Source of the DNA: Paenibacillus sp. UNC451MF
GTDB taxonomy: Bacteria; Bacillota; Bacilli; Paenibacillales; NBRC-103111
DNA length: 39,334 nt
Direction of reading: 5' to 3'
Assembly: GCF_000686845.1 (NCBI RefSeq)
Contig: NZ_JMLS01000040.1
Location: 1 to 39,334 of the forward strand
How positions within the stretch are numbered: the stretch's first letter is position 1; the number at the start of each line of letters is the position of its first letter. Positions 22,581 to 37,958 of the stretch are shown in pieces. The position numbers were made by a program, and so were the translations under genes. The notes below the pieces were generated by a model. The model was not told the DNA's origin, searched no databases, and saw only the letters and a list, made by a program, of their open reading frames with translations.

Positions 22581-23582
22581 TTAAATAAAATCCTCCAACT
22601 TCCATGTTTTACGGTAGTTAAGACAAATCGTATCCGCTGTTGGGAATTCAACAGGCAACCAAATGTAGGAGCATCGTTCAAAATTTTGTGTGTTATGTCG
22701 CTCTGCCATGTGAATGAAGAAACCTGACTTTCCTTCAACAGGAAGGATATAAGTACTTTGAGACTCGAAGGTCGTTCCTGTATCATTCACACAAGGATCA
22801 CCCATATCCGTCCATGGTCCCCACAGACTTTCAGCCCTAAAATATTTTGCAGGATTCGTTCTCCAACTGGTAAGCCCTGATGTAATCATAAAATAATATC
22901 CATTTTGATAAAGGATTGCCGCTGCTTCCCTCCTATATGCAACATCGAGTCTTCGGTACTCATTAGTAAAACTTAAATAATCCTCGCTTAGCTTAACAAT
23001 ATACAGACAGCGATCTTCATCATCTACAGCTCGATCATATATAAAGTATCCCGTTCCATCATGGTCCTTATATAGTGTGCAATCTCTTACTGCTCCAGCA
23101 TTATCAACAGGACGTGTATATCCACGCCATTCGTATTCACCATTAATGGTGCTGCAGGTAGCGACACCTGCCTCAGCAGTTCCGATCGCAAATCCATGAT
23201 CACCAGGATATTCTATATAGTGAACCCACATGACGAATTGCTTTGTTTTTTCATTGTAAATAACTTTGGGTCTTTCAAATCGCATAGGTCCATATAGAGG
23301 GTGCCCCACTTCGTTCGAGCAATGAAGGATAACACCCTCATAGTTCCAATTGTATAGATCAGACGAGCTGTACATAACGACGCCAACTGTTGTAGTTTGT
23401 CCGCCTTTACCTCCTCCAAGTGAAGGCAGAGGACGGAGCTTCATGCCATACCAATAGTACTTCCCGTCAACAAATATAATGCCTCCATCGCTTGCATTGA
23501 TCACGTTTCCATCTGTATCGAGCCATGAGAAATATTCGTCCATCTCCCCATTTGTAAATTCTTTATATTTGATGTTGTTCAT
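22581..23582 (-). CDS. Glycoside hydrolase family 43-like (exo-1,3-galactanase subfamily type)
   Basis: 333 aa, no signal peptide. The N-terminus DTDGNVINASDGGIIFVDG and KYYWYG follows the pattern of GH43 subfamily 24/34 (W-x-DTDGN-x-I-x-A-x-GGGI-x-x-x-x-G-x-YYWYG), whose known members are exo-beta-1,3-galactanases and related enzymes. Five-bladed beta-propeller repeats are recognisable: FERPKVIYNEKTKQFVMWVH, VRDCTLYKDHDGTGYFIYD and REAAAILYQNGYYFMITSG. The Glu in the REAA segment is a candidate acid. Ribosome site AAGGGGG, 7 nt before the ATG. It follows the second binding protein and precedes the TIM-barrel gene. Confidence 0.82.
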   Translation of the reverse strand: MNNIKYKEFTNGEMDEYFSWLDTDGNVINASDGGIIFVDGKYYWYGMKLRPLPSLGGGKGGQTTTVGVVMYSSSDLYNWNYEGVILHCSNEVGHPLYGPMRFERPKVIYNEKTKQFVMWVHYIEYPGDHGFAIGTAEAGVATCSTINGEYEWRGYTRPVDNAGAVRDCTLYKDHDGTGYFIYDRAVDDEDRCLYIVKLSEDYLSFTNEYRRLDVAYRREAAAILYQNGYYFMITSGLTSWRTNPAKYFRAESLWGPWTDMGDPCVNDTGTTFESQSTYILPVEGKSGFFIHMAERHNTQNFERCSYIWLPVEFPTADTICLNYRKTWKLEDFI

Positions 23583-23822: not shown

Positions 23823-25427
23823 TTACTTCTTATTCATATCCTTATAAGCAGCTCTGCGTTCATCTGCTACGGCTTGCCCGCCAATTTTCAGATACTCTGC
23901 GATGATTCCATCATATGTCTTATTGAATTCATCCGGCTTAGCTAAAACCCCCTTAACGATCGCCTCCTGAGCTTTATCCCTCAGTACTTTTCCGTATTTA
24001 GTCTCGGATTCGATCGGGCGATCAAGGCGCGGAACGGTCTCTCCATCTTTAAGCGCATTTTTGATACTTTGCAAAGCTACCTCTTTATAGTCCGGGAACG
24101 AAAGGACGGTTGCTTCGAGATTTTTCTCTTGAGAGCCGAAATCCTTGCCATTAATCATGATTGCAATATCTGGGTTATTATAGAACGTTTTCTTCGCTTC
24201 GTCCGTTGTGATCGCCTTTGGTAAACCATTCTCTAACGTATAATGCTGACCTTCAATGCCGTTCGTGAGCGTAAACAGTACATCTGGCTTCGACATCCAA
24301 TCCAGATACTTTATCGCTTCCGCCGCATGCTTGCTTGTCTTCGGAATCATCATGTACATGCCGATCGGATCGTAAATCGATTTCGGTGTCTTGCCTTCCT
24401 CATTCGTAAATGGATCTATCACGATATATTCTGCACCTGGAACGTTCTTTTTTAACGTATCAAAGACATTACCAGGCCCCATCATGCTTGGATGAGCAGC
24501 TAAGCCAGTGAAAGCACCCACAAGACCGTTTGAAATATCTTGGCGGTTGGCATTTCCGTCTTTATCAAGCGCGAAATCCCGTTTAATCAAACCCTCAGCA
24601 TTCATCTTATTTATGAACTGCACGCCTTCTTTGAAGCCTGGCATCAGCACTCCGGGTATATTGGAGCCCTGCGCCGACGAAAACGCATATTTATCTTCTT
24701 CCGACATTTTCTTAACGAATGACATGATTGGAACCATACCGTCATCCGCATTGAAGTTGTACGGTATCAATTTACCGCCAGTTTGACCAGGGTCTTTCTC
24801 CTTAAACGCTTTCATCGTTTTGTAAAATTCGTCCGTCGTCTTTGGAACTGGCAATCCTAGCTTATCCAACCAATCCTTCCGAATATAGGTGGATTTAGAA
24901 AACTGCAGCGGTCTCTTAGCGGGAATTGCATATTGCTTGCCGCTAAAAATGCCGTAGGAAAGAATCTCTGTACCAAGAAACTTTTTCAAATTAGGCCCGT
25001 TTGCATCGATCAATGAGCTGAGTTCCGTTAGACCGCCACTTTTTACATAACCATTAATCGTTGATGTGTCATATGTGAATACAATATCAGGTGCATCGCC
25101 AGTCGCCATTAGCACGTTGAGCTTATCCACCTCTTGAGTTCGTGGTACCGGAACGAATTGGAGCTTGATGTTATTCGGATCTCCAAAGTTCTTCTGAATC
25201 CATTGCGTCCAAAAGTTATTATCGACGGGACCGGCACCTGCAGGCGCATTACCACGGTCGAACATCTCCACCTTCAGGGTAACGGGCTCTTTACTTGCAC
25301 TGCCTGCCGTGCTTACGGAGGTATTTGGAGCAGCCTCCTTAGCCGGACCTGAGCAAGCTGACAGCATACCCGCCAACATCACAGCGGCAGCTGAAATTCC
25401 AAACCATCTTCTTTGATTTGCTTTCAT
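23823..25427 (-). CDS. Sugar-binding lipoprotein, YtcQ/LipO type (second binding protein)
   Basis: 534 aa. Lipoprotein signal with MLAGMLSACSGP (Cys about 25), then a low-complexity linker and a family-1 solute-binding domain (NNFWTQWIQKNFGDPNN, MATGDAPDIVFTYD, TYIRKDWLDKLGLPVPKT). It is a close paralogue of the 33524-35137 protein (roughly four-fifths identical by eye over the whole length, including the signal peptide). GGGAG lies before the ATG. It is expressed from promoter copy 1, separately from the permeases, so it may swap into the same transporter with a different specificity or raise binding-protein levels. Confidence 0.9.
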   Translation of the reverse strand: MKANQRRWFGISAAAVMLAGMLSACSGPAKEAAPNTSVSTAGSASKEPVTLKVEMFDRGNAPAGAGPVDNNFWTQWIQKNFGDPNNIKLQFVPVPRTQEVDKLNVLMATGDAPDIVFTYDTSTINGYVKSGGLTELSSLIDANGPNLKKFLGTEILSYGIFSGKQYAIPAKRPLQFSKSTYIRKDWLDKLGLPVPKTTDEFYKTMKAFKEKDPGQTGGKLIPYNFNADDGMVPIMSFVKKMSEEDKYAFSSAQGSNIPGVLMPGFKEGVQFINKMNAEGLIKRDFALDKDGNANRQDISNGLVGAFTGLAAHPSMMGPGNVFDTLKKNVPGAEYIVIDPFTNEEGKTPKSIYDPIGMYMMIPKTSKHAAEAIKYLDWMSKPDVLFTLTNGIEGQHYTLENGLPKAITTDEAKKTFYNNPDIAIMINGKDFGSQEKNLEATVLSFPDYKEVALQSIKNALKDGETVPRLDRPIESETKYGKVLRDKAQEAIVKGVLAKPDEFNKTYDGIIAEYLKIGGQAVADERRAAYKDMNKK

Positions 25428-25566
25428 GTTCTAACTCCCTTTCTGTTCTTGTTTACATGTATGTTCCACCTCTACAAAGAGAGGGGTCGACCCAAATCTT
25501 GAATACGATTTCAAAACTCAAGTTCAGATCAGTCATCCACAATATAAATGAAGTACTCCGTTCAAA

Positions 25567-25596
25567 ACAATAGTTTGATTTCCGTCGACTGTTCAA
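25567..25596 (-). promoter_or_regulatory. Regulon promoter, copy 1 (binding protein 2)
   Basis: On the minus strand: -35 TTGAAC (25591-25596), an 18-bp spacer containing GTCGACGGAAATCAAAC, -10 TATTGT (25567-25572). The block around it, from the preceding CAAGGG to the -10, is nearly identical in all four copies in the window. Start of transcription should be near 25560, giving a leader of about 130 nt. The conserved spacer is longer than a promoter needs and is likely the operator. Confidence 0.75.
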
Positions 25597-25631
25597 ATTC
25601 CAAAACCCTTGATATGACTGGCATTGACGGC

Positions 25632-25667
25632 AAAAAAAGAACGCCTGTCTCAAAAATACAGGCGTTC
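25632..25667 (-). terminator. Terminator of the regulator gene
   Basis: GAACGCCTGT (25639-25648) pairs with ACAGGCGTTC (25658-25667), followed on the minus strand by T7 (25632-25638). Confidence 0.92.
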
Positions 25668-25701
25668 CCAACTGCAATTAGATTCGATTCGTTAACAAAT
25701 C

Positions 25702-25722
25702 AAAAAAAAAAAACGGGGGGGG
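25702..25722. other. Homopolymer tract A12-C-G8
   Basis: Twelve A, one C and eight G lie between the regulator stop (25725) and its terminator. The tract is outside the coding region, so slippage would not change the protein. It may also be a sequencing-sensitive spot. Confidence 0.8.
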
Positions 25723-25724
25723 CA

Positions 25725-27968
25725 TCATTCTTCCTCCGAAAAAGTTTTCGTTTGAGACTCCCTGTACTGTCCTGGTGACAAGCCAACGATCTTCTTGAAA
25801 ACCTTAATAAATGAAGTCGGAGTCAGATATCCAACCTTTTCCGAGATCTCCTGTACGGGTGCCTCAGACTCGCAAAGTAGCTTCTTAGCATATTCGATTC
25901 TTAATTCGAGAAGAAAGTCCGTAAAATTTTGACCAAAGCTTTCTTTAAACAACTGGCTTAAATATTTGGAATTGATTTGAAAAAGGTCGCTCAGCATCGT
26001 AAGGGAAAGATTCGGGTCCATAAAATGCTCCGCTACATAATCGCGAATTTGCCTCATCAGCGTATTGTAGCGGCGGCTCTGGGCAAGCTCCCCAAGCTGA
26101 CCGGCCAGCTGCTCCAAAGCTGTTTGGAAACAAGCTTCAAGCTGCATTAGAGTATCCGATTGTTCAATCGCGAGAAGCAAGCCCGGCTTGGCTTTTCGTA
26201 GCCAATCCTCTACTTCAAGCTGTGCTCCTTCCAGCTCGTATTCGAGATGGAAGATAAAGTAGTGCAGCAAACGATCGACATCGTCTTTACCAAGATGATG
26301 CAAGGTCATCATGCCGAACAGTCTCTTCAGCTCATTCATCCAATTAGGTTCCGACATCCGAAGCATACGGACAATCGTTCGAATGGTGTCTAGATAGTCG
26401 AATAGTTCTCCATCGTGCTTCCTTGTAATTTCAACCCCGGCAATTACTTGATTTGTACCGCGTGTTACTTTATGGCTAACAGCCTCTGCTGCTGCTTTAA
26501 ATGAGCCGCCGATGGCAGATTCCTCGTCGGCGGCCGTACCGACGCCAATCGTAACCGTGAATTCAAGGTGCTCCTCGACCCAAGACCGAATTTGTTCCGA
26601 GATTTGAAGCACACGATGCTCCAATGACCCGTTTTCCTCTGAAATGAGCAGGAAGACAAGCAGATTTTTCGAAATCCACTCCACCACGATCCGCTGGCCA
26701 TTCTGCTCCGCGACTTCAACAGCAACACTGCTGATAATAAATTTGAACAACGATTGGTCACTTGGATTATAGTTCAGTCCGAATTTGACATAGTGGTCAA
26801 GCTCCAGCACAGCTACAATAAAATAACCTGCCTCTAGCCCGAAATGATGCCGTTCCTGCTCCCACGAAACGGGATCGCCTTCATATTCCTCCTTTAATAA
26901 CATTTGCAGAAACTGCTGTCTTCGAATGACCGAGTGTTCCTGCTGTTTTTCTTGAAAAGCCATATTATTCGTAATTAAGCGTTCAATCGCGTTATCAATA
27001 AAAGCAAATTCATTTTTATTTTCTTTCTGATCAGGAGCCTTGATGGCCGAAGAAAAATGGTTGATCCGTTGTAAAATCGCTTCGATCGGCTTATAGCTTC
27101 TGCGGGTAACGTAAAAGGTCGCCCCAACCGCAAAGACGATTGCCCCGAGGGCCAAAAGGATCCAGACCGTGCTTCCATGAAACAGGAAATCCAGCAGTTT
27201 GCCGCCTTTGATGCCTATTCGGTACGTCCAGCCCGTATAATCCGAAACGACGTTAGCAATAAGATTATTCTGAGAAGCTGCCGGGCTTTTCTCGTCGAAG
27301 AATGGCTTTCCCTGGGCATCGAACAGTTCCGCTACCGTTAATTTCTGGTCGATCATTTGTTTAATATAAGATTCAATCGAAGACACCCTAATGTTAATAA
27401 TTAAATAACCTAGACTTCCGGAATCGCGGGGAATTTTCAACCCTAACGAAATAACGCTTACTGATGGGGGAGACTTTATCCCTTCACTTTCTTTAAGCCT
27501 CGGTGAAGTCCAAACTCCCGTCAGCAAAAGCTCCTTCGAGCTGCGAATATAGCTTTGATCGGGGAATTGATCAATGGGCCGCATCGTGGTTTGATCGAGC
27601 ACCATACCATCCTTTGCCCGATATACGTATATGGAATCGATAAGCCCATATCGAACTTTAAGATTGCTAAGTAAATTAGAAATGTCGAATGCCATTCCCC
27701 AATCCAAAGGCCCATCCAGAAACTGCTGCAATTCATCGTTCGTTTCCACCATTTTCTGAGCATCGACGGAAATGTTTTTCAAAGAACTATCCACCGTGTT
27801 CTCAATAAATGCAGCCGTTACCTGGTTTGCCTGAATCGCATTACGAACATTATTTTGATTGATGATGGCAATGAAAATAATGATCAGCATACTAGCCGTG
27901 ACAAATAGAATGGGAAGGTACGAAAGCAGCATCCTATTGATGTAATGATTATTACCGATCTTCATCAT
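25725..27968 (-). CDS. Membrane-anchored AraC/YesN-type transcription regulator
   Basis: About 747 aa. Membrane helix 1 (about 15-38), an extracytoplasmic Cache-like sensor (about 40-265), membrane helix 2 (about 275-297) with a short HAMP-like linker, a cytoplasmic region with a degenerate GGDEF-like or helical part, and a C-terminal AraC domain (last ~100 residues): LTMLSDLFQINSKYLSQLFK, then VQEISEKVGYLTPTSFIKVF and GLSPGQYR. One-protein sensor-regulators of this type in Paenibacillus respond to external oligosaccharides and act on nearby transport genes. ATG 27968 (or 27965) follows AAGG; an in-frame ATG at 28034 would add a poor N-terminal extension. It lies inside the regulon and is driven by promoter copy 2, so it is probably autoregulated. 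Confidence 0.88.
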   Translation of the reverse strand: MMKIGNNHYINRMLLSYLPILFVTASMLIIIFIAIINQNNVRNAIQANQVTAAFIENTVDSSLKNISVDAQKMVETNDELQQFLDGPLDWGMAFDISNLLSNLKVRYGLIDSIYVYRAKDGMVLDQTTMRPIDQFPDQSYIRSSKELLLTGVWTSPRLKESEGIKSPPSVSVISLGLKIPRDSGSLGYLIINIRVSSIESYIKQMIDQKLTVAELFDAQGKPFFDEKSPAASQNNLIANVVSDYTGWTYRIGIKGGKLLDFLFHGSTVWILLALGAIVFAVGATFYVTRRSYKPIEAILQRINHFSSAIKAPDQKENKNEFAFIDNAIERLITNNMAFQEKQQEHSVIRRQQFLQMLLKEEYEGDPVSWEQERHHFGLEAGYFIVAVLELDHYVKFGLNYNPSDQSLFKFIISSVAVEVAEQNGQRIVVEWISKNLLVFLLISEENGSLEHRVLQISEQIRSWVEEHLEFTVTIGVGTAADEESAIGGSFKAAAEAVSHKVTRGTNQVIAGVEITRKHDGELFDYLDTIRTIVRMLRMSEPNWMNELKRLFGMMTLHHLGKDDVDRLLHYFIFHLEYELEGAQLEVEDWLRKAKPGLLLAIEQSDTLMQLEACFQTALEQLAGQLGELAQSRRYNTLMRQIRDYVAEHFMDPNLSLTMLSDLFQINSKYLSQLFKESFGQNFTDFLLELRIEYAKKLLCESEAPVQEISEKVGYLTPTSFIKVFKKIVGLSPGQYRESQTKTFSEEE

Positions 27969-28083
27969 CCCCACCCTTATCATTCGAGTTAACCATACTA
28001 TACATAAATTGTGTTGAAAGACACAACAGACCAATTTCAGACAAAGGAATCACCTCCACTATATGAGAAGTGTTCCAGAATAC

Positions 28084-28113
28084 ACAATAGTTCGATTTCC
28101 GTCTATAGTTCAA
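28084..28113 (-). promoter_or_regulatory. Regulon promoter, copy 2 (regulator gene)
   Basis: Minus strand: -35 TTGAAC (28108-28113), 18-bp spacer, -10 TATTGT (28084-28089). Spacer is the most diverged of the four (ATAGACGGAAATCGAAC instead of GTCGACGGAAATCAAAC), which may tune autoregulation. Transcription would start near 28077, about 110 nt before the ATG. Confidence 0.72.
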
Positions 28114-28155
28114 ATTCCAGATTCCTTGTTATTACAAGCTTTTTACCTCAAATAG

Positions 28156-28187
28156 AAAAAAACGCCCTTCTTGAAATGACGGGCGTT
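28156..28187 (-). terminator. Terminator of the permease-hydrolase operon
   Basis: AACGCCC (28161-28167) pairs with GGGCGTT (28181-28187), followed on the minus strand by T's (28156-28162). It is about 17 bp beyond the GH115-like stop. Confidence 0.85.
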
Positions 28188-28203
28188 CCGACTGCTTATT
28201 CTG

Positions 28204-30267
28204 TTACACACCGAACCAATCGGCCAGCTTTTGGGCTAGCTCGTCATCCGACAGGGGATTGCGGTGCGTGTTTTCCAAATAAATATATTTCTCTGTTTCC
28301 GGCATGATAAATTCCTTATACCACAAGAAGAAGTCCGGGCTGTCCCCGTGCATGCGGAGCCAGCGGCGGAGCGTGTCCATATTTTGCACCGTGCTACTGA
28401 TATTCGTCAGCCAATCCGCCCGAAAGAAATGAGACCATTTCCCGTGTTCGGCTTGCTTCAGCGCAGCAAGGCCCTTCTCGTACTTCCACATCGCCTGTGA
28501 AGCATAAACGAACGCCAGCGGGAAATTTCCCATCCGGTAGGCGGAGTACGATTTTCCTAGCTTATCGAAGCCCTCGCAGCCTGATAAATGCATCTCTACG
28601 TGCAACTGCAAGTGATCCTTCAGCCGAAGCCGGTCCGGTTCCGCAAGGCCTGGAAGCTGACTTTCGATCGGCTCGAGCAGTTCGAGCCAACCAGGAACGG
28701 CATCGGCGCACTTCCGTCGAAACCACTCCACTTGATCCGGAAAATTGATTTCCCCTGTCGCCCAATACAACGCGCCAAGCGGTTGATCAGATCTCCCTTG
28801 AAGCCAATGACCGACGATTCTGCGGGCCGGATGGTGATAGAACTCGTCTCCCGCCCGGTCGTCTTCGTTCGGACCGTATAGAATCGTTTTGCGAGCATAG
28901 TCACGGTATAGTTCGGCGATTTCTACCGAACCGGTGGGGAACATCCGGTTAACAAAAGTACGAAGGTGCTCTTCCGCATCCACTTCTCCCCCCAGCCAAA
29001 GTTCGCGCACCAAATCTAGCGTATAGATATGAGGCCGGATGTTGCCGCTATTGACTAGAAGGTAATCCTTTGCGCCAGCCTGGAAAGCCCCCTCCAGCTC
29101 ATCTCTAATGAAGCTGGTCGGCGATGGGAACAAAGCCAAGTGATTAGAAGCTTGCAGATCGTGAAACGTCACATGGTAGTAAATACCATGCTTGCCTTTG
29201 TCTTTAGGGCCGGGTAAGGAAGGAATGCGCAAGTTCTCGTTGTTATTACGGCGGGAAACCATTTTTCCGTACCCGTTATCCGCCCAAATCTTGATAATAT
29301 CGTCCGGAATGCTGATATGACCTGCTTTATATAATTCCGCGATCTCACCATACAATGCCACACTGCACTTGGGATCAGGCACCTTGCCTCGAATCATTTC
29401 ATATTGTTTGCGCACGACGCGGCTAATCATTTCACCACGCTTTTGCGGCGTGTCGAATGCAGGATCCTTTGCCCAGAAAGGCTCATCTCCTTGCCCACGG
29501 AAGGAAAGAACCCAAACAATGTTACGGTCCTTCTGCTTCTCGATCGCTTCTTCCCACAAGGTTTCGAACAACTCCGGGTTTTCTTGATAGCTTGCCTTCT
29601 TTCCGGGATAGGCCCGCAGAAACATCTCGGCTCCCAGAGGCTCGGCATGATGGTGTGTGACCCAAAGTCCCATCTCGGCGGCCAGATCGGCATGAATTCC
29701 ATGCTTCGGTAGATCGGTACCGGGGATGACCATATTTCCGCCACAGCGCAGCAACGTCTCAAATACTGGCTGCCATACCTCACGAGTCGGAGGATAATCT
29801 TCCTTCCACCCGATCAGACACACCTCGTCGTTGACGAACCAACCACGGAATCGAACAGCCGGCTCAAACGAATCATAATCATTAGTCGGAAGTTCTATAT
29901 GGCTGCACCGTTTGGGAGGCAAGTCCGCCCAAAACCAGAGCGGATCAACGCCGAGATGCTTTCCGCTATACTCGAGCATGCCGTAAACCAAGCCGAGATC
30001 GTCCTTCGCAGCAATATGCAACTCGGTTCTTCCACCATCCATGATAAACCGAAAACAAAATGCCTCCGGCCAATCCGGACATCTTTCCTCAGGTACCGCA
30101 TAGCGGAACACGACGTCAGCATGCTCCTCCTCCCCTAAAACCGAGGTCGGTACCGTACCCAGAACCTGTTCATGGTCTCTCTTCACCATTTCCCAAGCAT
30201 GGCGAACCGGCGAAGTTGGATTGTTCGGGATGCGGTAAATTGTTTTCCGGTCAATGCTAAATGCCAA
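28204..30267 (-). CDS. Glycoside hydrolase family 115-like (alpha-glucuronidase type)
   Basis: About 687 aa. No signal peptide, so cytoplasmic. Family marks: FRGWFVNDEV (about 139-148, the GH115 R-G-x-x-x-N-D-E motif), NIVWVLSFRGQGDEPFW, IIKIWADNGYGKMVSRR, and GIYYHVTFHDLQASN (equivalent to the GGxG-x-YYH-x-x motif). GH115 enzymes remove terminal alpha-1,2-linked glucuronic acid or 4-O-methyl-glucuronic acid. Usual family members are about 700-1000 aa; a C-terminal extra domain seen in some seems absent. The TTG at 30267 is chosen over ATG 30285 because AGGAG lies 7 nt before it, and the ATG has no ribosome site. It is the last gene of the operon. Confidence 0.8.
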   Translation of the reverse strand: MAFSIDRKTIYRIPNNPTSPVRHAWEMVKRDHEQVLGTVPTSVLGEEEHADVVFRYAVPEERCPDWPEAFCFRFIMDGGRTELHIAAKDDLGLVYGMLEYSGKHLGVDPLWFWADLPPKRCSHIELPTNDYDSFEPAVRFRGWFVNDEVCLIGWKEDYPPTREVWQPVFETLLRCGGNMVIPGTDLPKHGIHADLAAEMGLWVTHHHAEPLGAEMFLRAYPGKKASYQENPELFETLWEEAIEKQKDRNIVWVLSFRGQGDEPFWAKDPAFDTPQKRGEMISRVVRKQYEMIRGKVPDPKCSVALYGEIAELYKAGHISIPDDIIKIWADNGYGKMVSRRNNNENLRIPSLPGPKDKGKHGIYYHVTFHDLQASNHLALFPSPTSFIRDELEGAFQAGAKDYLLVNSGNIRPHIYTLDLVRELWLGGEVDAEEHLRTFVNRMFPTGSVEIAELYRDYARKTILYGPNEDDRAGDEFYHHPARRIVGHWLQGRSDQPLGALYWATGEINFPDQVEWFRRKCADAVPGWLELLEPIESQLPGLAEPDRLRLKDHLQLHVEMHLSGCEGFDKLGKSYSAYRMGNFPLAFVYASQAMWKYEKGLAALKQAEHGKWSHFFRADWLTNISSTVQNMDTLRRWLRMHGDSPDFFLWYKEFIMPETEKYIYLENTHRNPLSDDELAQKLADWFGV

Positions 30268-30296
30268 AGTAAGTCTCCTCTCCATCCAAGCCTGCA

Positions 30297-30338
30297 GAGA
30301 ATCGCCGGCTCCCCCTAAAAGGCCCCCCGGCGATTCTC
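30297..30338 (-). other. Intercistronic hairpin between GH106-like and GH115-like genes
   Basis: GAGAATCGCCGG (30297-30308) is a perfect 12-bp inverted repeat of 30327-30338, with an 18-nt loop. There is no T-run, so it probably stabilises or processes mRNA rather than terminating. GH106 and GH115 are otherwise 80 bp apart in the same direction. Confidence 0.7.
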
Positions 30339-30349
30339 CTTCGACATAT

Positions 30350-33300
30350 CTAGTTTGTTTTTCTCTTATAAATTTCCGGCTCTCTTAAGATTCCAACTGC
30401 CTTAAGCTGGTACTGATAAGAGAAGCTTTCATTAACTGTCCGCCATGAAGCATCACCGTACCATCTCAGCTGCTCGTCGGCCAGATGAAGCTGTCCAAAT
30501 GAATTGATTCTGCTTCCAAAAGCCTCCAAAACGACTCTGTGCTTCCCTTTTCCCAGATATCCAAGCGATGCGCGGTAAGGCGAGTATGCAATCGTTCCCG
30601 TTCTCTTTCCGTCCACGCTGACGCCGATAAGAGGCGCGCGGAATTTGGTGATTCCTACCTCGTACTCGCCTGTTTCCTCCACTTCAAATTCGAATTCATA
30701 TCGAACATTCCCACCGTAGAACGGCAGCCCCTGTCCACATATATCGCTAAATCCGAGTTTTTCAGGCAACCTTATAACGGAGGCCATATTTCCGACAGCC
30801 TTCACCCCGAAATCGCCGAGCAGATACATATTTTCTACGTTGAAATGAGACGCATAGGCTATTTTCACATGAATATTCAGCTCTCCGGCAGATACCGGCA
30901 TCATGGCAAACCTACGGATGCTCTCATCCACATAAAATCCGCAGTCTTTCAGCTCTGCCTTAACGCCGTTCACAATGATTTCCGTCATTTCCGGCTGCTC
31001 TAACGCCAGATACCATTCATCAAGACCGGCTTCCAGCTCAACCTTGAAATGCAGTTCAAGCACATGCTCCGGCTTTTCCTTCGAATTGGCAAACGGCTGG
31101 GCTACTCTCTCATAGCGAATTGGCATCCCAAGCTGCTGGCGGAGCTTATTGTCCAGGCGAAGCAGCTCTTCTACTGGCTGCCAATTCCCGCTATCCAGAC
31201 GGTATTCCGCCATATCGAGCACAAGCACATTCGGCTCGGAAAGCGAGTAGTTCGCCGGATTCACAATGGTTTTCACGTTTTCCCACTCAGCGAGATTTGC
31301 TGCATCCACGATTTCCGCTGCGCATGCTGTGGCATAAGTCTCATCGGTTCTTTTAAGCTTCAAGAGAAGACTGTCATCTTCGTGCATTCTCCATTTGAAG
31401 ACCGTGCTGCCATTGGCATAATTGACCTTTATTTCTTTCGTTGAACCAGTGTGGGTATTGTAGATCGTTACCTGCCAAGTCCCCGGAATACTGATTCTAA
31501 GCAGCTCCGAAGTTGTCAAATCCTCATTAATAATCTTTCTTCCGTTGGCAAGAAATACAAAGCGGCCCTCCTCGATTTCACGCATCTGGTATAGAATGAA
31601 ATCCGCCGTGGAACCATCGGCCTTTCTTACTTCGATATCTCTATATTTATCCAGCGCACGAACAATCCCGTTCTTCGAAAAACTTACGCGGCTACACGCA
31701 TTTGCAAATTGGCTTCCTTGCTCCGAATCACAGGCATCTACATAAGTTGGTGCCTCCCCAGCGAATACAATTTCGCCACCAGCTTCTCTGAACTGTCTCA
31801 ACGCTGAAAGCGTTGTGCTGCGAATGGTATGGCAGTTGGGAACCAAAACTACATCATAGGCCATTTCGCCGACATGGAATTTTCGGTCCGAGCTTTCCGC
31901 ATATTGATCCTTCAGCAGGGACTCACTGATAAAGTCAAAGTCCAGTTGTTCAAATAGCAACCATTCGATGACACCTTGAAAATTCTTTTCGAGCTCATCC
32001 CGCATTCTCTTCGTGTGTTCATTCGGCCCTGTATATAGCCAGAAGGTTTCCACCGGATGAATCACGCCTATGCGGACACGCGGCTTTCCACTCGTCAAAG
32101 CTACATTGACTCTAGCAAAGTGCTCTTCAACCATCGCATATTCTTTATACCAAGGCGATTGGTAAAAAATCGATGCCGGCCAGTCTCGTTTGGCCGCACC
32201 CGCCATGCTCATCCAGGCCAAATGATGAACTCTGAGGGTAACGCCCAGCGCCGCCTGCCAATCCCCCCCCAGCTTATGTCTTCTGAAATCCAGATCCCAA
32301 TTCGTAGCGCCGTAGAGTTCGGACATAAGACCTTCCCGTCCATACTGATGCGCCGCACTCTGCGCTTGCTTAGCGGTAGAATATACCCGATCATCGCATA
32401 ATACATCGATACCCGGGAGTCCGAAGCTCCGGTAAAACCGCATCGCCTCACCGAGTTCCGCTGTCTGGGCGAGCAATGTATCTTCACTCTTCATGTGCCC
32501 GGTCATGGTGATTCCATGCTCCTCACACCATGCGCCTATGGTATCGGCAAAGGCAGTGACAAACATTTCCGCTACAATATCACGGTACCGGTATTTCGCC
32601 GTGGAAGATTTTCCATCCGGACGCTCCCATACCAGTTGCGGGAAGATCTCGAAAAAGTCATCTCCATACCGCTCCTTATACACCTCAGCTACTTTTTCGG
32701 TGAAGGGGTAAGTAACGCCTTCCTTAGCCTCTGCATATCCCAGAAAGGTATTACGCGTAAGCTGCGCCTCATCTGTAAAAATCGACGGAACCACACTGCC
32801 GAATTCCTCTCCGATTTCCCTGTAGTACAATTCATGGGTCGTTTCAACAAAACGCTTGATCGCTTCCGGATTCATTACATCTACATAGGATTCATGGTTA
32901 AACCAAGGTAGCTTCGGCCGGAGCTCCAGATACAAATCCCATACATTTGCACCTTCCTCGCCTTGCTTGAGAATCCGCCAGGAAGTTAAATATCCGTTTA
33001 CCAGTGTAATATCGTAGCTGATTAACAGCGTCTTCTCATTCGAAGACCGTTCGGGATCATAGATTCTGGTATCTCCGGACCGCGGCATCAGAACCAAGTG
33101 TCTGCCGCGAAAGCGTTCTTCTTTCGTCGCTATTCCGCCCGCAAATCCGGAAGGCCAGCGATCCTCGTCATATAAATAGACAAGCAGATTCTCTTGCTTC
33201 GCTTTCTCAACGCTGAGCTTGACAGCATCCATAAATTGTTCTCCGAGATACGGTGTGTCAAGTCCGATTCTTGCGTGGATATGGAAACCGCCCATGCCCA

Positions 33301-33436
33301 TTTCTTTAAAATAATCCACCTGCTTCAGAAGCTTTTCTTGATCCAGTTCGCAGTTCCACGACCAAAAAGGCGCACCACGATATTTCGCGGAAGGGTCTTG
33401 AAATAAAACATCGAAGTTTTTCTTATTCTGAGCCAT
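30350..33436 (-). CDS. Glycoside hydrolase family 106-like (alpha-L-rhamnosidase type)
   Basis: 1028 aa, no signal peptide. The N-terminus is the family's usual opening: YRGAPFWSWNCELDQEKLLK, then QVDYFKEMGMGGFHIHARIG and LVYLYDEDRWPSGFAGG (about 82-98). The region FTDEAQL (about 218) and TMTGHMKSEDTL (about 309) fits the catalytic barrel. The C-terminal ~300 residues are beta-rich with YEFEFEVEETGEYEVGI, a carbohydrate-binding-like sandwich typical of GH106. Members hydrolyse terminal alpha-L-rhamnose, often next to glucuronic acid. AGGAGG-like GGAGG lies 7 nt before the ATG. It follows binding protein 1 and precedes the GH115-like gene. Confidence 0.85.
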   Translation of the reverse strand: MAQNKKNFDVLFQDPSAKYRGAPFWSWNCELDQEKLLKQVDYFKEMGMGGFHIHARIGLDTPYLGEQFMDAVKLSVEKAKQENLLVYLYDEDRWPSGFAGGIATKEERFRGRHLVLMPRSGDTRIYDPERSSNEKTLLISYDITLVNGYLTSWRILKQGEEGANVWDLYLELRPKLPWFNHESYVDVMNPEAIKRFVETTHELYYREIGEEFGSVVPSIFTDEAQLTRNTFLGYAEAKEGVTYPFTEKVAEVYKERYGDDFFEIFPQLVWERPDGKSSTAKYRYRDIVAEMFVTAFADTIGAWCEEHGITMTGHMKSEDTLLAQTAELGEAMRFYRSFGLPGIDVLCDDRVYSTAKQAQSAAHQYGREGLMSELYGATNWDLDFRRHKLGGDWQAALGVTLRVHHLAWMSMAGAAKRDWPASIFYQSPWYKEYAMVEEHFARVNVALTSGKPRVRIGVIHPVETFWLYTGPNEHTKRMRDELEKNFQGVIEWLLFEQLDFDFISESLLKDQYAESSDRKFHVGEMAYDVVLVPNCHTIRSTTLSALRQFREAGGEIVFAGEAPTYVDACDSEQGSQFANACSRVSFSKNGIVRALDKYRDIEVRKADGSTADFILYQMREIEEGRFVFLANGRKIINEDLTTSELLRISIPGTWQVTIYNTHTGSTKEIKVNYANGSTVFKWRMHEDDSLLLKLKRTDETYATACAAEIVDAANLAEWENVKTIVNPANYSLSEPNVLVLDMAEYRLDSGNWQPVEELLRLDNKLRQQLGMPIRYERVAQPFANSKEKPEHVLELHFKVELEAGLDEWYLALEQPEMTEIIVNGVKAELKDCGFYVDESIRRFAMMPVSAGELNIHVKIAYASHFNVENMYLLGDFGVKAVGNMASVIRLPEKLGFSDICGQGLPFYGGNVRYEFEFEVEETGEYEVGITKFRAPLIGVSVDGKRTGTIAYSPYRASLGYLGKGKHRVVLEAFGSRINSFGQLHLADEQLRWYGDASWRTVNESFSYQYQLKAVGILREPEIYKRKTN

Positions 33437-33523
33437 ATTTTTTCCTCCGTGATGGAAAATAGAATGGGGAGCATCAAAGGCCGTCGGAAGGGCAGGCTTT
33501 CATCTCCCCATATATAAACCGGT

Positions 33524-35137
33524 TTATTTCTTCATTTCTTTGTAAGCGGCTCTACGTTCGTCGATTACGGCTTGGCCACCCAGCTTCAAATATTCCGCAA
33601 CCGAAGCATCGTATATTTTGTTGAAATCCTCCGGCTTGGCCAGAATGCTCTTAACGACCGTTTCCGTCGCCTTATCGCTGAGCGTTTTGCCGTATTTGAT
33701 CTCGGAGTCGATCGGACGATCAAAGCGTGGAGCTGTGTATCCATCTTTGAGAGCGTAGAGAATCGATTGTTTAGCAAGATCTTTATAATTAGGGAACGAA
33801 AGTGCAGTGGCTTCGATATTTTTATCAGCAGAACCGAAATCCTTACCGTTAATGACGATCGCTATATCTGCGTTATTATAAAATGTTTTCTTTGCTTCAT
33901 CCGTCGTAATCGCCTTGGGGAAGCCGTTTTCCAGCGTGTAATGCTGGCCTTCAATACCGTTCGTGAGTGTAAACAACACGTCCGGCTTCGACATCCAATC
34001 CAAATACTTAATCGCTTCAGCCGCGTGCTTGCTCGCCTTCGGAATCATCATGTAAATGCCGATCGGATCGTAAATCCCTTTCGGTGTCTTGCCTTCTTCG
34101 TTTACAAATGCATCCATCGCCACATACTCGGCTCCCGGTACATTCTTCTTCAGTGTATCGAATCTATTGCCCTGACCCATGAAGGTCGGATGAGCAGCTA
34201 TATCTGTGAACGCTCCAACAATCCCGCTTGTTTCGGCTTTCTCGGCGGCTTTGTCGTCCTTGTCCAACGCAAAGTCCGAATTGATTAGGCCCTCTGCATT
34301 CATCTTGTTCAAGAACTGCACTCCATCTTTGTAACCCGGCTTCATCAGTTCAGGTGTGTTGGAGCCCTGCCCCGTCGATAAGGCATAATTGTTTTCTTCC
34401 GACATTTTTTTCACAAACGAGCCAATAAAAGTACTGGGGTCCGGCCCATGGCCAATCGGACCGAGCAAGTATGGGATCACTTTGCCGCCGGTTTGCCCAG
34501 GGTCTTTCTCCTTGAACGCTTTCATCGTTTGGTAAAACTCTTGGGTTGTCTTCGGTACCGGCAGCCCCAGCTTATCCAGCCAATCCTTGCGGATATAGCT
34601 GGTCTTGTTGTATTGCAACGTTCTCTTGGCAGGGATAGCATACTGCTTGCCACTGAAAACACCGTAGGAGAGAACCTCTTGACCGAGGAACTTTTTCAGG
34701 TTCGGCCCGTTCTCGTCGATCAGCTTACTGAGATCAGTCAATCCTCCACCCTTAACATAATTGTTAATCGTCGTGGGGTCATATGTAAACACGAGATCGG
34801 GGGCATCACCCGAGGCCATGAGTACGTTCAGCTTATCTACTTCTTGATTCCGCGGCACAGGCACAAACTGGAGCTTGATATTGTTCGGGTCACCGAAATT
34901 CTTCTGAATCCATTGCGTCCAGAAGTTATTATCCACAGGACCGGCGCCTGCAGGAGCATTGCCGCGATCGAACATCTCCACTTTCAGGGTAACGGGCTCT
35001 TTGCTTGCACTGCTTGCCGAGCCTGCGGAGGTATTTGGAGCGGCTTCCTTTGCCGGAGTAGCACAAGCTGACATCATACCCGCCAGCATCACAGCGGAAG
35101 CCGAAATTCCAAACCATCTTCTTTGCATTGCTTTCAT
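33524..35137 (-). CDS. Sugar-binding lipoprotein, YtcQ/LipO type (first binding protein)
   Basis: 537 aa. Lipobox GMMSAC (Cys about 25) after a hydrophobic core, then the same solute-binding domain as the 23823-25427 paralogue. The signal region, NNFWTQWIQKNFGDPNN and the C-terminal GGQAVIDERRAAYKEMKK are shared with it. The proteins differ mainly in a segment around residues 215-300, which includes an insertion (GPIGHGPDPS) absent from the paralogue; this lies where the sugar cleft would be. GGGAG is 7 nt before the ATG. It is third in the permease operon, directly after the inner-membrane components. Confidence 0.92.
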   Translation of the reverse strand: MKAMQRRWFGISASAVMLAGMMSACATPAKEAAPNTSAGSASSASKEPVTLKVEMFDRGNAPAGAGPVDNNFWTQWIQKNFGDPNNIKLQFVPVPRNQEVDKLNVLMASGDAPDLVFTYDPTTINNYVKGGGLTDLSKLIDENGPNLKKFLGQEVLSYGVFSGKQYAIPAKRTLQYNKTSYIRKDWLDKLGLPVPKTTQEFYQTMKAFKEKDPGQTGGKVIPYLLGPIGHGPDPSTFIGSFVKKMSEENNYALSTGQGSNTPELMKPGYKDGVQFLNKMNAEGLINSDFALDKDDKAAEKAETSGIVGAFTDIAAHPTFMGQGNRFDTLKKNVPGAEYVAMDAFVNEEGKTPKGIYDPIGIYMMIPKASKHAAEAIKYLDWMSKPDVLFTLTNGIEGQHYTLENGFPKAITTDEAKKTFYNNADIAIVINGKDFGSADKNIEATALSFPNYKDLAKQSILYALKDGYTAPRFDRPIDSEIKYGKTLSDKATETVVKSILAKPEDFNKIYDASVAEYLKLGGQAVIDERRAAYKEMKK

Positions 35138-35215
35138 GTAATAACTCCCTTTCTTCTCTTCTTATATTAATTTACCCCCAAGGATCAAAGGGAACAACCG
35201 ATTTTCAAGCTCAAT

Positions 35216-36103
35216 TTATCCTTTAACTGCGCCGATCATAATGCCGGAGACAAAATACCGCTGAAGAAAAGGATATACGATCAAGATCGGTGTCGTGGCG
35301 AACATGATGCTGGCGGCCTTGAGGCTTTCCGGAACGGATTCGAATTGACTTGCTCCCTCCTGGGCAGTCAGATCGGTCACCATGCTGTTCATGACGACCT
35401 GGTACAACTTCAACTGAATCGGATACAATTCCGCGTGAGTAATGTAGAACAGCGCGTCCATAAAACCGTTCCATCGGGATACCGCATAAAACAGGCTAAG
35501 CGTCGCCAGCACCGGCATCGACAGGGGAAGGACGATGCGAATTAAGGTGCCAATGTGCGAGCTTCCGTCTAAATACGCCGACTCTTCCAAACTGGCCGGT
35601 ACCGATAAGAAAAATGTACGCAAAATGATTAAGTTAAACGCGCTAATCATACCCGGTACAATGAGGGATAACAGATTGTCGAGCAGCCCGAGCTGCTTCA
35701 CTAACAAATATTCGGGAATCAATCCGCCGCTGAAAAACATCGTAAAGACGATGAGCAGCATAAACACCGATTTACCCTTCAGACGTTCCTTTGTTAACGG
35801 ATACGCAGCACAGATGCTCATCACCATGCTGATTGCAGTATAGGCCACCGTAAGAAAGATGGTTAACCCCATCGACCACAACATTCTCGAATCCGTGAAC
35901 ACGATTTCGTAGGCATGGAAGTCCAGCTCCCTCGGAAAAATCGTAACTAGCCCGGACATCACGGCTTGTTTAGAGCTAAGCGAGATCGAGATGATGTACA
36001 GAAAGGGCAGGAGACAAACGAACAAGGCCGCTCCGACAACCAGCATGATGACAGCGTCCGTGAGCCGGAAGCCCGACGGTGTTTGTTGTACTTGGGTTTT
36101 CAT
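35216..36103 (-). CDS. Carbohydrate ABC transporter permease (LplC/YtcP type)
   Basis: 295 aa, six membrane helices. The cytoplasmic EAA loop is EESAYLDGSSHIGTLIRIVL (about 180-199), where the ATPase docks. ATG 36103 is chosen over 36121 because AGGAGG lies 7 nt before it and the upstream start would be inside the first permease. The spacing to that permease is 11 nt. It forms the inner-membrane channel with the first permease; no ATPase gene is near, so a shared MsmX-type ATPase is expected. The downstream neighbour is the first binding protein. Confidence 0.92.
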   Translation of the reverse strand: MKTQVQQTPSGFRLTDAVIMLVVGAALFVCLLPFLYIISISLSSKQAVMSGLVTIFPRELDFHAYEIVFTDSRMLWSMGLTIFLTVAYTAISMVMSICAAYPLTKERLKGKSVFMLLIVFTMFFSGGLIPEYLLVKQLGLLDNLLSLIVPGMISAFNLIILRTFFLSVPASLEESAYLDGSSHIGTLIRIVLPLSMPVLATLSLFYAVSRWNGFMDALFYITHAELYPIQLKLYQVVMNSMVTDLTAQEGASQFESVPESLKAASIMFATTPILIVYPFLQRYFVSGIMIGAVKG

Positions 36104-36114
36104 ATCGTTTCCTC

Positions 36115-37077
36115 CTACCATATCCCTTGCTCTCCAAATCGTTTGGCAATCGTATTGGCGAGTACCACGAAGATGAGTCCGACCAATGCCTGGAACAAGC
36201 CCATCGCTGTCGCCAATGAGAATTGTGCCGATTGAAGACCAGCTTTATACACAAAGGTGCTGATCACTTCCGAATACTCCGCAACCAACGTATTGCCCAT
36301 CACAAAAGGTCTCTCGAAGCCGATCGTCATAATATGACCTAGCTGCATGATCAGCATCACAACAATGGTCGAACGGATGCCCGGCAGTGTAATATGCCAC
36401 ATCTTCTTCCACCTACCGGCACCGTCCACCTCCGAAGCTTCGTAGAGCTCCTTGTTTATGCCGGTTAACGCCGCCAAATAAATGATGGTCCCCCAACCGG
36501 CGCTCTGCCAAATCCCGGTTCCTAAGTAAACAAGGACCCAGACATTCTTGTCAGTCAAAAAAGGAACCCGCGGAAGACCGAGACTGACGATGACATTGTT
36601 GATAAGGCCGTCATTTGTTGCAAACATCTGAAAGGCCAGACCACCGATAATGATCCACGAAATAAAATGCGGCAGGTACAAAATCGTCTGCGACAGCTTT
36701 TTAAACCAGATCACCCTAAGCTCATTGAGTAATAGAGCCAAAATGATCGGTGTAGGAAACGAAAACAACAAATCCAGCAAGTTCAGCATCAGCGTATTCC
36801 TTACAACCTGGTAAAACTGGCTCATCGCAAACAATTGCCGGAAGTTTTCAAATCCGTTCCACGGACTACCGGTCACGCCTTGGAAGATGCTGTAATCCTG
36901 AAACGCTATCGCCGCACCGTACATCGGAACGTACTTAAAAACTATAAAGTACAGAATGGGGAGGACGAGTAACAAGTAAAGCTGGTAGTCCCGCAAAAAC
37001 CCCGATGCCGATCGACGCCTCACCGCCGTATGCAGTAATTGCGAGTTACTCTGAGTCGTAGTTCGAGCCATGTGCAT
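36115..37077 (-). CDS. Carbohydrate ABC transporter permease (LplB type)
   Basis: About 320 aa with six membrane helices, beginning after a short Thr/Gln/Ser-rich tail. The EAA loop is EASEVDGAGRWKKMWHITLP (about 220-239), typical of LplB. ATG 37077 is chosen because AGGAGAAAGAAGGG lies just upstream; a further in-frame ATG at 37164 would add about 29 residues of non-family sequence. It is the first gene of the permease-binding protein-hydrolase operon and is driven by promoter copy 3. Confidence 0.9.
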   Translation of the reverse strand: MHMARTTTQSNSQLLHTAVRRRSASGFLRDYQLYLLLVLPILYFIVFKYVPMYGAAIAFQDYSIFQGVTGSPWNGFENFRQLFAMSQFYQVVRNTLMLNLLDLLFSFPTPIILALLLNELRVIWFKKLSQTILYLPHFISWIIIGGLAFQMFATNDGLINNVIVSLGLPRVPFLTDKNVWVLVYLGTGIWQSAGWGTIIYLAALTGINKELYEASEVDGAGRWKKMWHITLPGIRSTIVVMLIMQLGHIMTIGFERPFVMGNTLVAEYSEVISTFVYKAGLQSAQFSLATAMGLFQALVGLIFVVLANTIAKRFGEQGIW

Positions 37078-37188
37078 CCCTTCTTTCTCCTGTTCAAAAT
37101 TTAGAAGCAACCTTGATTGTGGCCCTACCTCCTGATTCCGATTGCCCGGACCAGTCATCAACAATATACTCTCAGTGTTAGGAACGAC

Positions 37189-37218
37189 TCAATAGTTTGA
37201 TTTCCGTCGACTGTTCAA
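37189..37218 (-). promoter_or_regulatory. Regulon promoter, copy 3 (permease operon)
   Basis: Minus strand: -35 TTGAAC (37213-37218), 18-bp spacer with GTCGACGGAAATCAAAC, -10 TATTGA (37189-37194). Spacer and flanks match copy 1 nearly base for base. Start of transcription near 37182, about 105 nt before the first permease. Confidence 0.78.
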
Positions 37219-37253
37219 ATTCAAAAACCCTTGATACGACTGAGTTTGCGAGC

Positions 37254-37287
37254 AAAAAGAACGCCCGTCTTAGAGAGACAGGCGTTC
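37254..37287 (-). terminator. Terminator after the lyase-domain remnant
   Basis: GAACGCC-GTCT (37259-37270) pairs with AGAC-GGCGTTC (37276-37287) with one mismatch. On the minus strand T's follow (37254-37258). The stem resembles those of the other operon ends in the region (GAACGCC...GGCGTTC), apparently a shared duplicated block. Confidence 0.88.
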
Positions 37288-37336
37288 CTTTACGTTTGCG
37301 CATTTGTAGTTAAGCCAAATTGTTGAAACTCCTAAT

Positions 37337-37639
37337 TTACTTAACTAATACCGTATAGTTATCGTATGTCGTTGCACCAGTATTACCTAAACTAACCTGC
37401 GAATCGGCGGTATAAGTCTTCTTATATATACTAAAAGTTCGAGTTACACCATCTTCGGATTCGGTCAGATAATCGGTAGTGTCTGTCCATGTTGAGAGCC
37501 AGGAAGGCTTCGTAGTAATTCAGTCGTCAATCGCTACGTAAACCGTGCTATCCCTGGTTATCGTAAATGTAACGAGGGTCGTACCCGTGTAATTTTTAGA
37601 AGTGTTAGCTGCTTTTACAAAAAAAATCAACAAAGATGT
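37337..37639 (-). pseudogene. C-terminal domain of a polysaccharide lyase or related enzyme, decayed
   Basis: The minus-strand frame reads TTLVTFTITRDSTVYVAIDD, a TGA stop (37520-37522), then PSWLSTWTDTTDYLTES, RTFSIYKKTYTADSQVSLG and TYDNYTVLVK with a final stop at 37337. This is the small beta domain found at the C-terminus of pectate/rhamnogalacturonan lyases and other secreted enzymes (VYVAYD, LPSWLSS, F-x-x-Y-x-K-x-x-x-A-G-x-x-V-x-L-G, Y-x-V-x-V). The nonsense codon replaces a residue in the VYVA(Y)D segment region, and a stop upstream marks the left break. The catalytic part of the enzyme is gone. Confidence 0.7.
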
Positions 37640-37873
37640 TTAACAGAGCTTAATCATTAAATGACGTTTGATACTTTCAAACATTTCATTTGTTGGTACT
37701 GATAAAAAAGCTCTCTTACACAGTCCTCCCTTCACCTATCGAACTAGTGGATACGCTTACAAAGATTCTAACCTCCCTCCGTCTGCGCCTCACGGCCGCC
37801 TTGTGCTGATCCCATCTCTGTTTCTAAAAGGCGGACCAGTTACACAAACTATAGATGAAGGGTTCCGGACGAC

Positions 37874-37903
37874 ACAATAGTTTGATTTCAGTTGATTGTT
37901 CAA
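37874..37903 (-). promoter_or_regulatory. Regulon promoter, copy 4 (orphan)
   Basis: Minus strand: -35 TTGAAC (37898-37903), 18-bp spacer (AATCAACTGAAATCAAAC), -10 TATTGT (37874-37879). The spacer keeps GAAATCAAAC but has lost the GTCGACG part. It points at the lyase remnant, about 230 bp downstream, so it once drove that gene. Confidence 0.65.
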
Positions 37904-37958
37904 ATTCTAGAACCATTGGTAGTGGGTGCATTTACGATCCTAGACGCATGCAAAGAAA

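Follow-up and report, generated by a model that had tools for sequence, protein, structure and literature searches.

Tandem half-sites as likely operators of a predicted membrane-anchored AraC-family regulator in Paenibacillus sp. UNC451MF

A 39,334-nt stretch of the genome of Paenibacillus sp. UNC451MF (contig NZ_JMLS01000040.1, assembly GCF_000686845.1; hereafter the window, meaning the whole stretch) carries four near-identical DNA blocks around the gene of an AraC-family regulator that is predicted to be membrane-anchored. Are these blocks promoters, or binding sites for the regulator? A sequence-only reading had taken them for promoters (-35 TTGAAC, 18-bp spacer, -10 TATTG(T/A)) that also hold an operator and together define one local regulon. 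The present analysis divides the blocks differently. TTGAAC and TATTG are most likely parts of an operator with two direct-repeat half-sites 18 bp apart, and the promoter is probably shifted by 24 bp in the downstream direction (TTGNNT-18-TATAGT/TATATT), with a -35 that overlaps the proximal half-site. We estimate a probability of about 0.85 that each block is an operator-promoter for the linked regulator.

The repeated blocks and their promoters

Scored as TTTGAAC-N8-GAAATC-N-AAC-TATTG, the block motif has four exact matches (0 mismatches) on the minus strand of the window (25568-25597, 28085-28114, 37190-37219 and 37875-37904), in line with the claim of four near-identical blocks, and none at ≤ 3 mismatches in 100 window shuffles. 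When the search was extended to the whole genome (7,486,340 bases), as the sequence-only reading had proposed, one further match with 3 mismatches was found at C28:30017 and nothing else at ≤ 3 mismatches. The few matches in 12 other genomes of the genus all had 3 mismatches; the exact motif is private to the UNC451MF locus. GTCGACGGAAATCAAAC is identical in copies 1 and 3, exactly as claimed before. Because the promoter is reassigned, the predicted starts shift to the positions given below.

25541..25601, minus strand: copy 1, before binding protein 2; distal half-site 25584-25601, proximal half-site 25568-25583; proposed promoter with -35 TTGTTT (25565-25570) and -10 TATATT (25541-25546), predicted start about 25534
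28058..28118, minus strand: copy 2, before the regulator; distal half-site 28101-28118, proximal half-site 28085-28100; proposed promoter with -35 TTGTGT (28082-28087) and -10 TATAGT (28058-28063), predicted start about 28051
37163..37223, minus strand: copy 3, before the permease operon; distal half-site 37206-37223, proximal half-site 37190-37205; proposed promoter with -35 TTGAGT (37187-37192) and -10 TATATT (37163-37168), predicted start about 37156
37848..37908, minus strand: copy 4, before a decayed gene; distal half-site 37891-37908, proximal half-site 37875-37890; proposed promoter with -35 TTGTGT (37872-37877) and -10 TATAGT (37848-37853), predicted start about 37841

Regulator orthologs were defined as matches at E ≤ 1e-150, and their loci (that of genome G011 and twelve further ones that were fetched) were compared with the window. 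The half-sites follow each other at a pitch of 18 in 4/4 window blocks; among 29 non-window sites the pitch is 18 in 20 and 19 in 9, and the mutual identity of the half-sites is 0.57 at pitch 18, 0.53 at 19 and ≤ 0.34 at every other pitch between 12 and 26. Direct-repeat half-sites that overlap the proposed -35 are the tandem arrangement expected of AraC-family sites. The -10 is TATAGT in 26 of the 29 non-window sites, 20-21 bases past the TTG box, and the proposed -35, which opens with the TTG of the half-site, stands 17 or 18 bp from it in 28/29. Beyond TTG this -35 is weak (TTGTGC, TTGCAG and others among the non-window sites). The GAA...TTG box and TATAGT are kept at orthologous loci and TTGAAC is not, being at least two mismatches off near its expected place in all 29 sites. 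The assignment of TTGAAC and TATTG(T/A) to -35 and -10 does not survive this comparison, and TTGAAC/TATTGT was rejected as a sigma-A promoter because its hexamers are not conserved at orthologous genes. The accompanying claim that the blocks hold an operator is supported.

Run over both strands of the window and of 13 ortholog loci (315,445 bases), a regular expression for the proximal box and the -10 matched 18 sites, among them the four window blocks. It matched none in the reversed sequence, and the distance from ATTG to TATA is 20 or 21 in 18/18. Two members of the non-window set, the sites before permease 1 in L076 and L080, were picked out by eye. At L072 the choice fell on 1027, a site upstream of permease 1 that has a -10, instead of the two best matrix hits (720 and 10860). 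Four sites were taken from a proximal-box matrix that leaves the -10 out of account (L069:1990, L073:11291, L074:14472 and L078:8937), each being the top hit of the matrix or the one ranking just below sites already known; three have TATAGT and one has TTTAGT.

The 26 bp before the distal half-sites hold a further shared element (e.g. window 25602-25627, L080 near 710 and 6075), which in 14 aligned permease-type promoters reads roughly AAANCC-AGTC-NTATCAAGGG-TTTC. Many permease-type promoters also have a GTGGTTA-CCGGCC stretch after the -10.

The regulator, its orthologs and the rival explanations

25725..27968, minus strand: AraC-family regulator, likely ATG at 27968 (Lys744, discussed below, is numbered on the 769-amino acid open reading frame (ORF) from 28034)

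The C-terminus of the regulator matches HTH_18 in Pfam (E 2.7e-20; 72.9 bits against a cut-off of 33.6) and displays the double helix-turn-helix of the AraC/XylS family, with sequence matches to solved AraC, SoxS and MarA domains. Pfam also finds a GGDEF_2-like domain, and a dCache_1 match of 22.8 bits lies under its cut-off of 45, so that the sensor family is uncertain. Hydropathy peaks at residues 40-58 and 289-307 resemble transmembrane segments and are compatible with a membrane-anchored protein. The type is common: each of the 13 genus genomes examined has 2 to 6 matches at E ≤ 1e-60.

Orthologs are present in 14 of 104 family genomes, UNC451MF itself included. In G011, which belongs to the same genus, permease 1, permease 2, binding protein, regulator and GH115 form a single run, with protein identities to the window of 70-86% except for GH115 (61%). 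One promoter region was found there, before permease 1 (CGGAATTCGGATAATTACCCTGAAATAAGTCTATTGTG-18-TATAGT); its TGAAAT, CTATTGTG and TATAGT match the window copies and TTGAAC does not. Across the 104 family genomes the pattern GAAANNNGTYTRTTG-N20/21-TATAGT occurs at 23 sites in 11 genomes, all 11 ortholog-bearing, and is absent from the 90 family genomes without an ortholog and from the backwards control. Since family loci supplied the pattern, the hits are in part built in, which does not apply to the lack of hits elsewhere; 7 of the 23 sites lie outside the loci used. By eye, the genes behind six of these new sites appear to encode permease 1, two binding proteins, a GH106-like enzyme, a cupin-type regulator and a secreted beta-helix protein; the seventh is followed by no long ORF in the stretch examined. 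Overall, the sites precede permease 1, binding protein, regulator, GH43, GH106-like and secreted beta-helix genes. A looser pattern, searched in 392 genomes of the order, matches 27, of which 19 are among the 22 ortholog-bearing genomes: 11/14 with an ortholog within the family, and outside it (288 genomes) 8/8 with an ortholog against 6/280 without (P 2.8e-12, phylogeny ignored). The claim of one local regulon around the predicted membrane-anchored regulator is supported.

In the UNC451MF genome itself the GAAANNNGTYTRTTG-type pattern occurs at one place only, a degenerate copy that the sequence-only reading had not listed and that lies between copy 2 and the start codon of the regulator:

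27997..28039, minus strand: copy 5, with proximal-type half-site TGAAATTGGTCTGTTG at 28024-28039; proposed promoter with -35 TTGTGT (28021-28026) and -10 TATAGT (27997-28002), predicted start about 27990

The regulator gene may accordingly possess two promoters, at copies 2 and 5.

From these sequence features we infer how the system might operate. The cytoplasmic helix-turn-helix domain, probably in two copies, would bind the two half-sites, GGAA-type direct repeats spaced 18 bp apart. The terminal TTG of the proximal half-site would double as the start of the -35 (TTGNNT), 18 bp before TATAGT/TATATT, and the regulator, presumably sensing an external sugar signal, would most likely activate from a position that overlaps the -35. 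In class II activation by AraC-family proteins, the activator site overlaps the -35; the proposed arrangement resembles it in the overlap of the proximal half-site with the proposed -35, but differs in that the regulator is predicted to be membrane-tethered.

It is very unlikely that TTGAAC-18-TATTG(T/A) is the -35/-10 pair after all, with the operator sequence inside its spacer. TTGAAC, the 18-bp spacer and TATTG are indeed constant in all four copies, and the spacing suits a sigma-A promoter, but both hexamers fall within the direct repeat, TTGAAC is at least two mismatches off at all 29 non-window sites, and the conserved -10 sits past the TTG box instead. The pair was also not listed by a general promoter scan, which lists the alternative at copy 3 only. 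The overlap of the proximal half-site with the proposed -35, seen in all copies, would equally suit a repressor that binds the tandem sites, blocks the -35 and is relieved by ligand. We consider this improbable, though less so than the TTGAAC promoter: a -35 that is poor beyond TTG is expected of an activated promoter, and related AraC-family sugar regulators, those of Caldicellulosiruptor bescii, are read as activators in the accessible part of their description (PMC8579813). Recent DNA duplication alone, free of regulatory constraint, fits the 78% identity of copies 1 and 3 over 142 bp, stem included, and the origin of binding protein 2 as a duplicate of binding protein 1. As the sole source of the block similarity it is scarcely credible: the flanking sequence has diverged around a conserved operator core, and orthologous genes of other genera and families have sites built in the same way.

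Several observations weigh against our preferred reading of the blocks as operator-promoters for the linked regulator. Many sites were chosen with TATAGT or TATATT already in the search pattern as the -10, and the general promoter scan, which finds the proposed promoter only at copy 3, gives totals no higher than those of shuffles. A matrix built solely from ortholog sites scores three window blocks at 12.5, does not have copy 2 among the twelve hits listed and has its top score (16.6) at +39068, where there is no -10; matrix hits without a -10 occur elsewhere too (L072:720, L076:13271). We read the low rank of the window blocks as the effect of their altered core, described below. Copy 5 lacks the GGAA distal half-site. 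Among ortholog-bearing genomes, G038, G039 and G082 miss the GAAANNNGTYTRTTG-type pattern and carry variants. The looser pattern also matches 2 of the 90 family genomes without an ortholog, and its backwards control hits 7/392 genomes; since this control hits so many, the 8 site-bearing genomes without an ortholog may be mostly chance. The sites of G321 and G201 are nevertheless convincing, and these genomes have no ortholog at 1e-150, their regulator matches being 28-32%. The G201 site (L113, G201:C9:78800-82800, position 1517) precedes a response-regulator gene, and therefore another regulator may serve it, two-component control possibly replacing one-component control.

The grammar of the sites was also sought at 28 paralog loci. 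The full GGAA..ATTG pattern occurs there 4 times (L014, L015, L025 and L026) and 0 times in reversed sequence, against a mean of 0.3 in 30 block shuffles that once reached 4; the proximal box with the -10 occurs 6 times, 0 times reversed, against a shuffle mean of 0.5 and a maximum of 2. A single GGAA..ATTG grammar for all membrane AraC regulators was not established. The paralog group of L014, L015, L025 and L026, about 34% identical to the regulator, has the same layout with a different core, e.g. GGAATTCGGTGACC...GGAATACTGTCAATTG, and its sites stand before permease or binding protein genes. Very long ORFs follow operator sites in L076 (11308-17784, 2158 amino acids) and L070 (701-5167, 1488 amino acids), the latter with a beta-helix match.

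The altered core and residue 744

The window's four blocks differ from all other sites at position 9 of the half-site, which is A in 4/4 proximal and 4/4 distal half-sites and G in 39/39 proximal and 39/39 distal non-window half-sites. The core accordingly reads AAC in the four blocks and GTT or GTC at most other sites. Not counted among the 39 are L105, which is the L080 site again, window copy 5, and L112 and L113, which have no ortholog. A G or G/A at position 9 was part of the selection for some proximal boxes, but not for the 14 non-window regular-expression sites or for the distal boxes. The alignment of the distal half-sites is possibly one base off, which would weaken the distal half of the finding.

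In the regulator, residue 744 in the second helix-turn-helix is Lys, and it is Arg in 21/21 orthologs (13/13 and 8/8). Lys744 is not the sole difference, as seven positions within residues 660-764 deviate from the residue common to at least 10 of 13 orthologs; the KYLSQLFK sequence of the first helix-turn-helix is the same in 20/21 orthologs. Printed alignments give Arg at position 744 in E. coli AraC and Lin2118 and Thr in two other solved domains. Arg residues of the second recognition helix of AraC contact DNA, and Arg744 would read the G at position 9. The lineage could, with roughly even odds, have rewired its regulon by a coordinated specificity switch, G to A at position 9 of the half-sites alongside Arg744 to Lys. 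Copy 5 retains the G, the older type, and may either be left over from the earlier code or serve a separate autoregulation.

Gene neighbourhood, duplication and related systems

The genes that surround the blocks were assigned with Pfam, except for the decayed gene:

22581..23582, minus strand: GH43 gene, downstream of binding protein 2
23823..25427, minus strand: binding protein 2 (SBP_bac_1)
28204..30285, minus strand: GH115 gene
30350..33436, minus strand: GH106-like (alpha-L-rhamnosidase) gene
33524..35137, minus strand: binding protein 1 (SBP_bac_1)
35216..36121, minus strand: ATP-binding cassette (ABC) permease 2
36115..37077, minus strand: ABC permease 1; its probable ATG, at 37077 or 37071, lies downstream of the copy 3 promoter
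37340..37639, minus strand: remnant of a decayed gene after copy 4, in stop-to-stop pieces 37340-37519 and 37523-37639

The listed ORF of permease 1 begins earlier, at a TTG. Most likely these genes form one local regulon, composed of the permeases, binding protein 1, GH106 and GH115, of binding protein 2 and GH43, of the regulator and of one lost gene. The suggestion that copy 4 drove a now-decayed enzyme gene holds for the decay; 'enzyme' is unproven, as neither of the two longest stop-to-stop pieces matches a Pfam or NCBIfam family at 0.1. Against the fetched loci these pieces match, operator blocks aside, only the window itself. Copy 4 would be a promoter that has lost its gene.

Terminator-type stems lie upstream of copies 1 to 3:

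25640..25666, minus strand: stem upstream of copy 1, just after the regulator gene
28161..28187, minus strand: stem upstream of copy 2, just after the GH115 gene
37260..37286, minus strand: stem upstream of copy 3, just after the decayed gene

These AACGCC-N15-GGCGTT stems fold at -16.8, -13.7 and -21 kcal/mol for copies 1 to 3, each below all 200 shuffles, and are the only ones with N15 among 8 AACGCC-N8-22-GGCGTT places genome-wide. The general stem is not rare, because the backwards control of the loose pattern gives 9 places. A simple terminator scan did not list the three stems, and the AACGCC-type stem is absent before copy 4. In 14 other loci scanned, such a stem was found in L075 only, before the permease 1 promoter; by eye, another stands before the binding protein promoter of Cohnella thailandensis (L080). 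Copies 1 and 2 are 70% identical over 140 columns. The earlier proposal that terminator and promoter of copies 1-3 may have been copied as one block is supported. The hairpins before these three copies are related, and the 142-bp alignment of copies 1 and 3 spans the stem. Binding proteins 1 and 2 are 78% identical, and their leaders match at 87.5% over 64 bp near the binding protein 2 start codon. Because copies 1 and 3 align and these leaders match, a permease-type promoter seems to have been joined to the duplicated binding protein gene.

The setting resembles that of known regulators. In B. subtilis, YesS and YtdP are membrane-anchored AraC proteins beside rhamnogalacturonan gene clusters. 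In the accessible part of PMC8579813, all four single-component AraC-family regulators examined in C. bescii have tandem sites upstream of promoter elements, with mapped starts. Like the regulator of UNC451MF, they are local and stand beside ABC sugar transporters; C. bescii is a different organism, and the likeness is one of layout and not of compared motifs (PMC8579813). The L-rhamnose (AraC-type) and rhamnogalacturonan (RhgR) regulons of Bacillales likewise control plant-sugar uptake and hydrolases, according to the available text of PMC3870299, in which the AraC-type L-rhamnose regulators have direct-repeat sites with a 21-bp periodicity. Unlike those sites, the ones described here have a pitch of 18-19 bp, and at pitch 21 the half-sites share an identity of only 0.05 in the window's four blocks and 0.17 in the 29 other sites. 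AraC-type activators of hemicellulase genes in two-component systems are described in the available portions of PMC10766802 and PMC3572039. No description of the present operator sites was found in the open literature searched, as far as its accessible text extends.

Tandem-site AraC-family regulators of sugar genes are already known from the text available, and the UNC451MF regulon would add one. Its four sites probably switch on genes for plant-sugar uptake and digestion by way of the linked membrane-bound regulator. The analysis gives a precise, testable operator for a type of membrane-tethered AraC regulator and corrects a promoter assignment that was convincing by eye. The arrangement itself is of a known type; the part worth testing is the coordinated change by which the lineage appears to have altered sites and regulator together. 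If true, the pair of G9 and Arg744 could be used to predict the base that a given residue reads.

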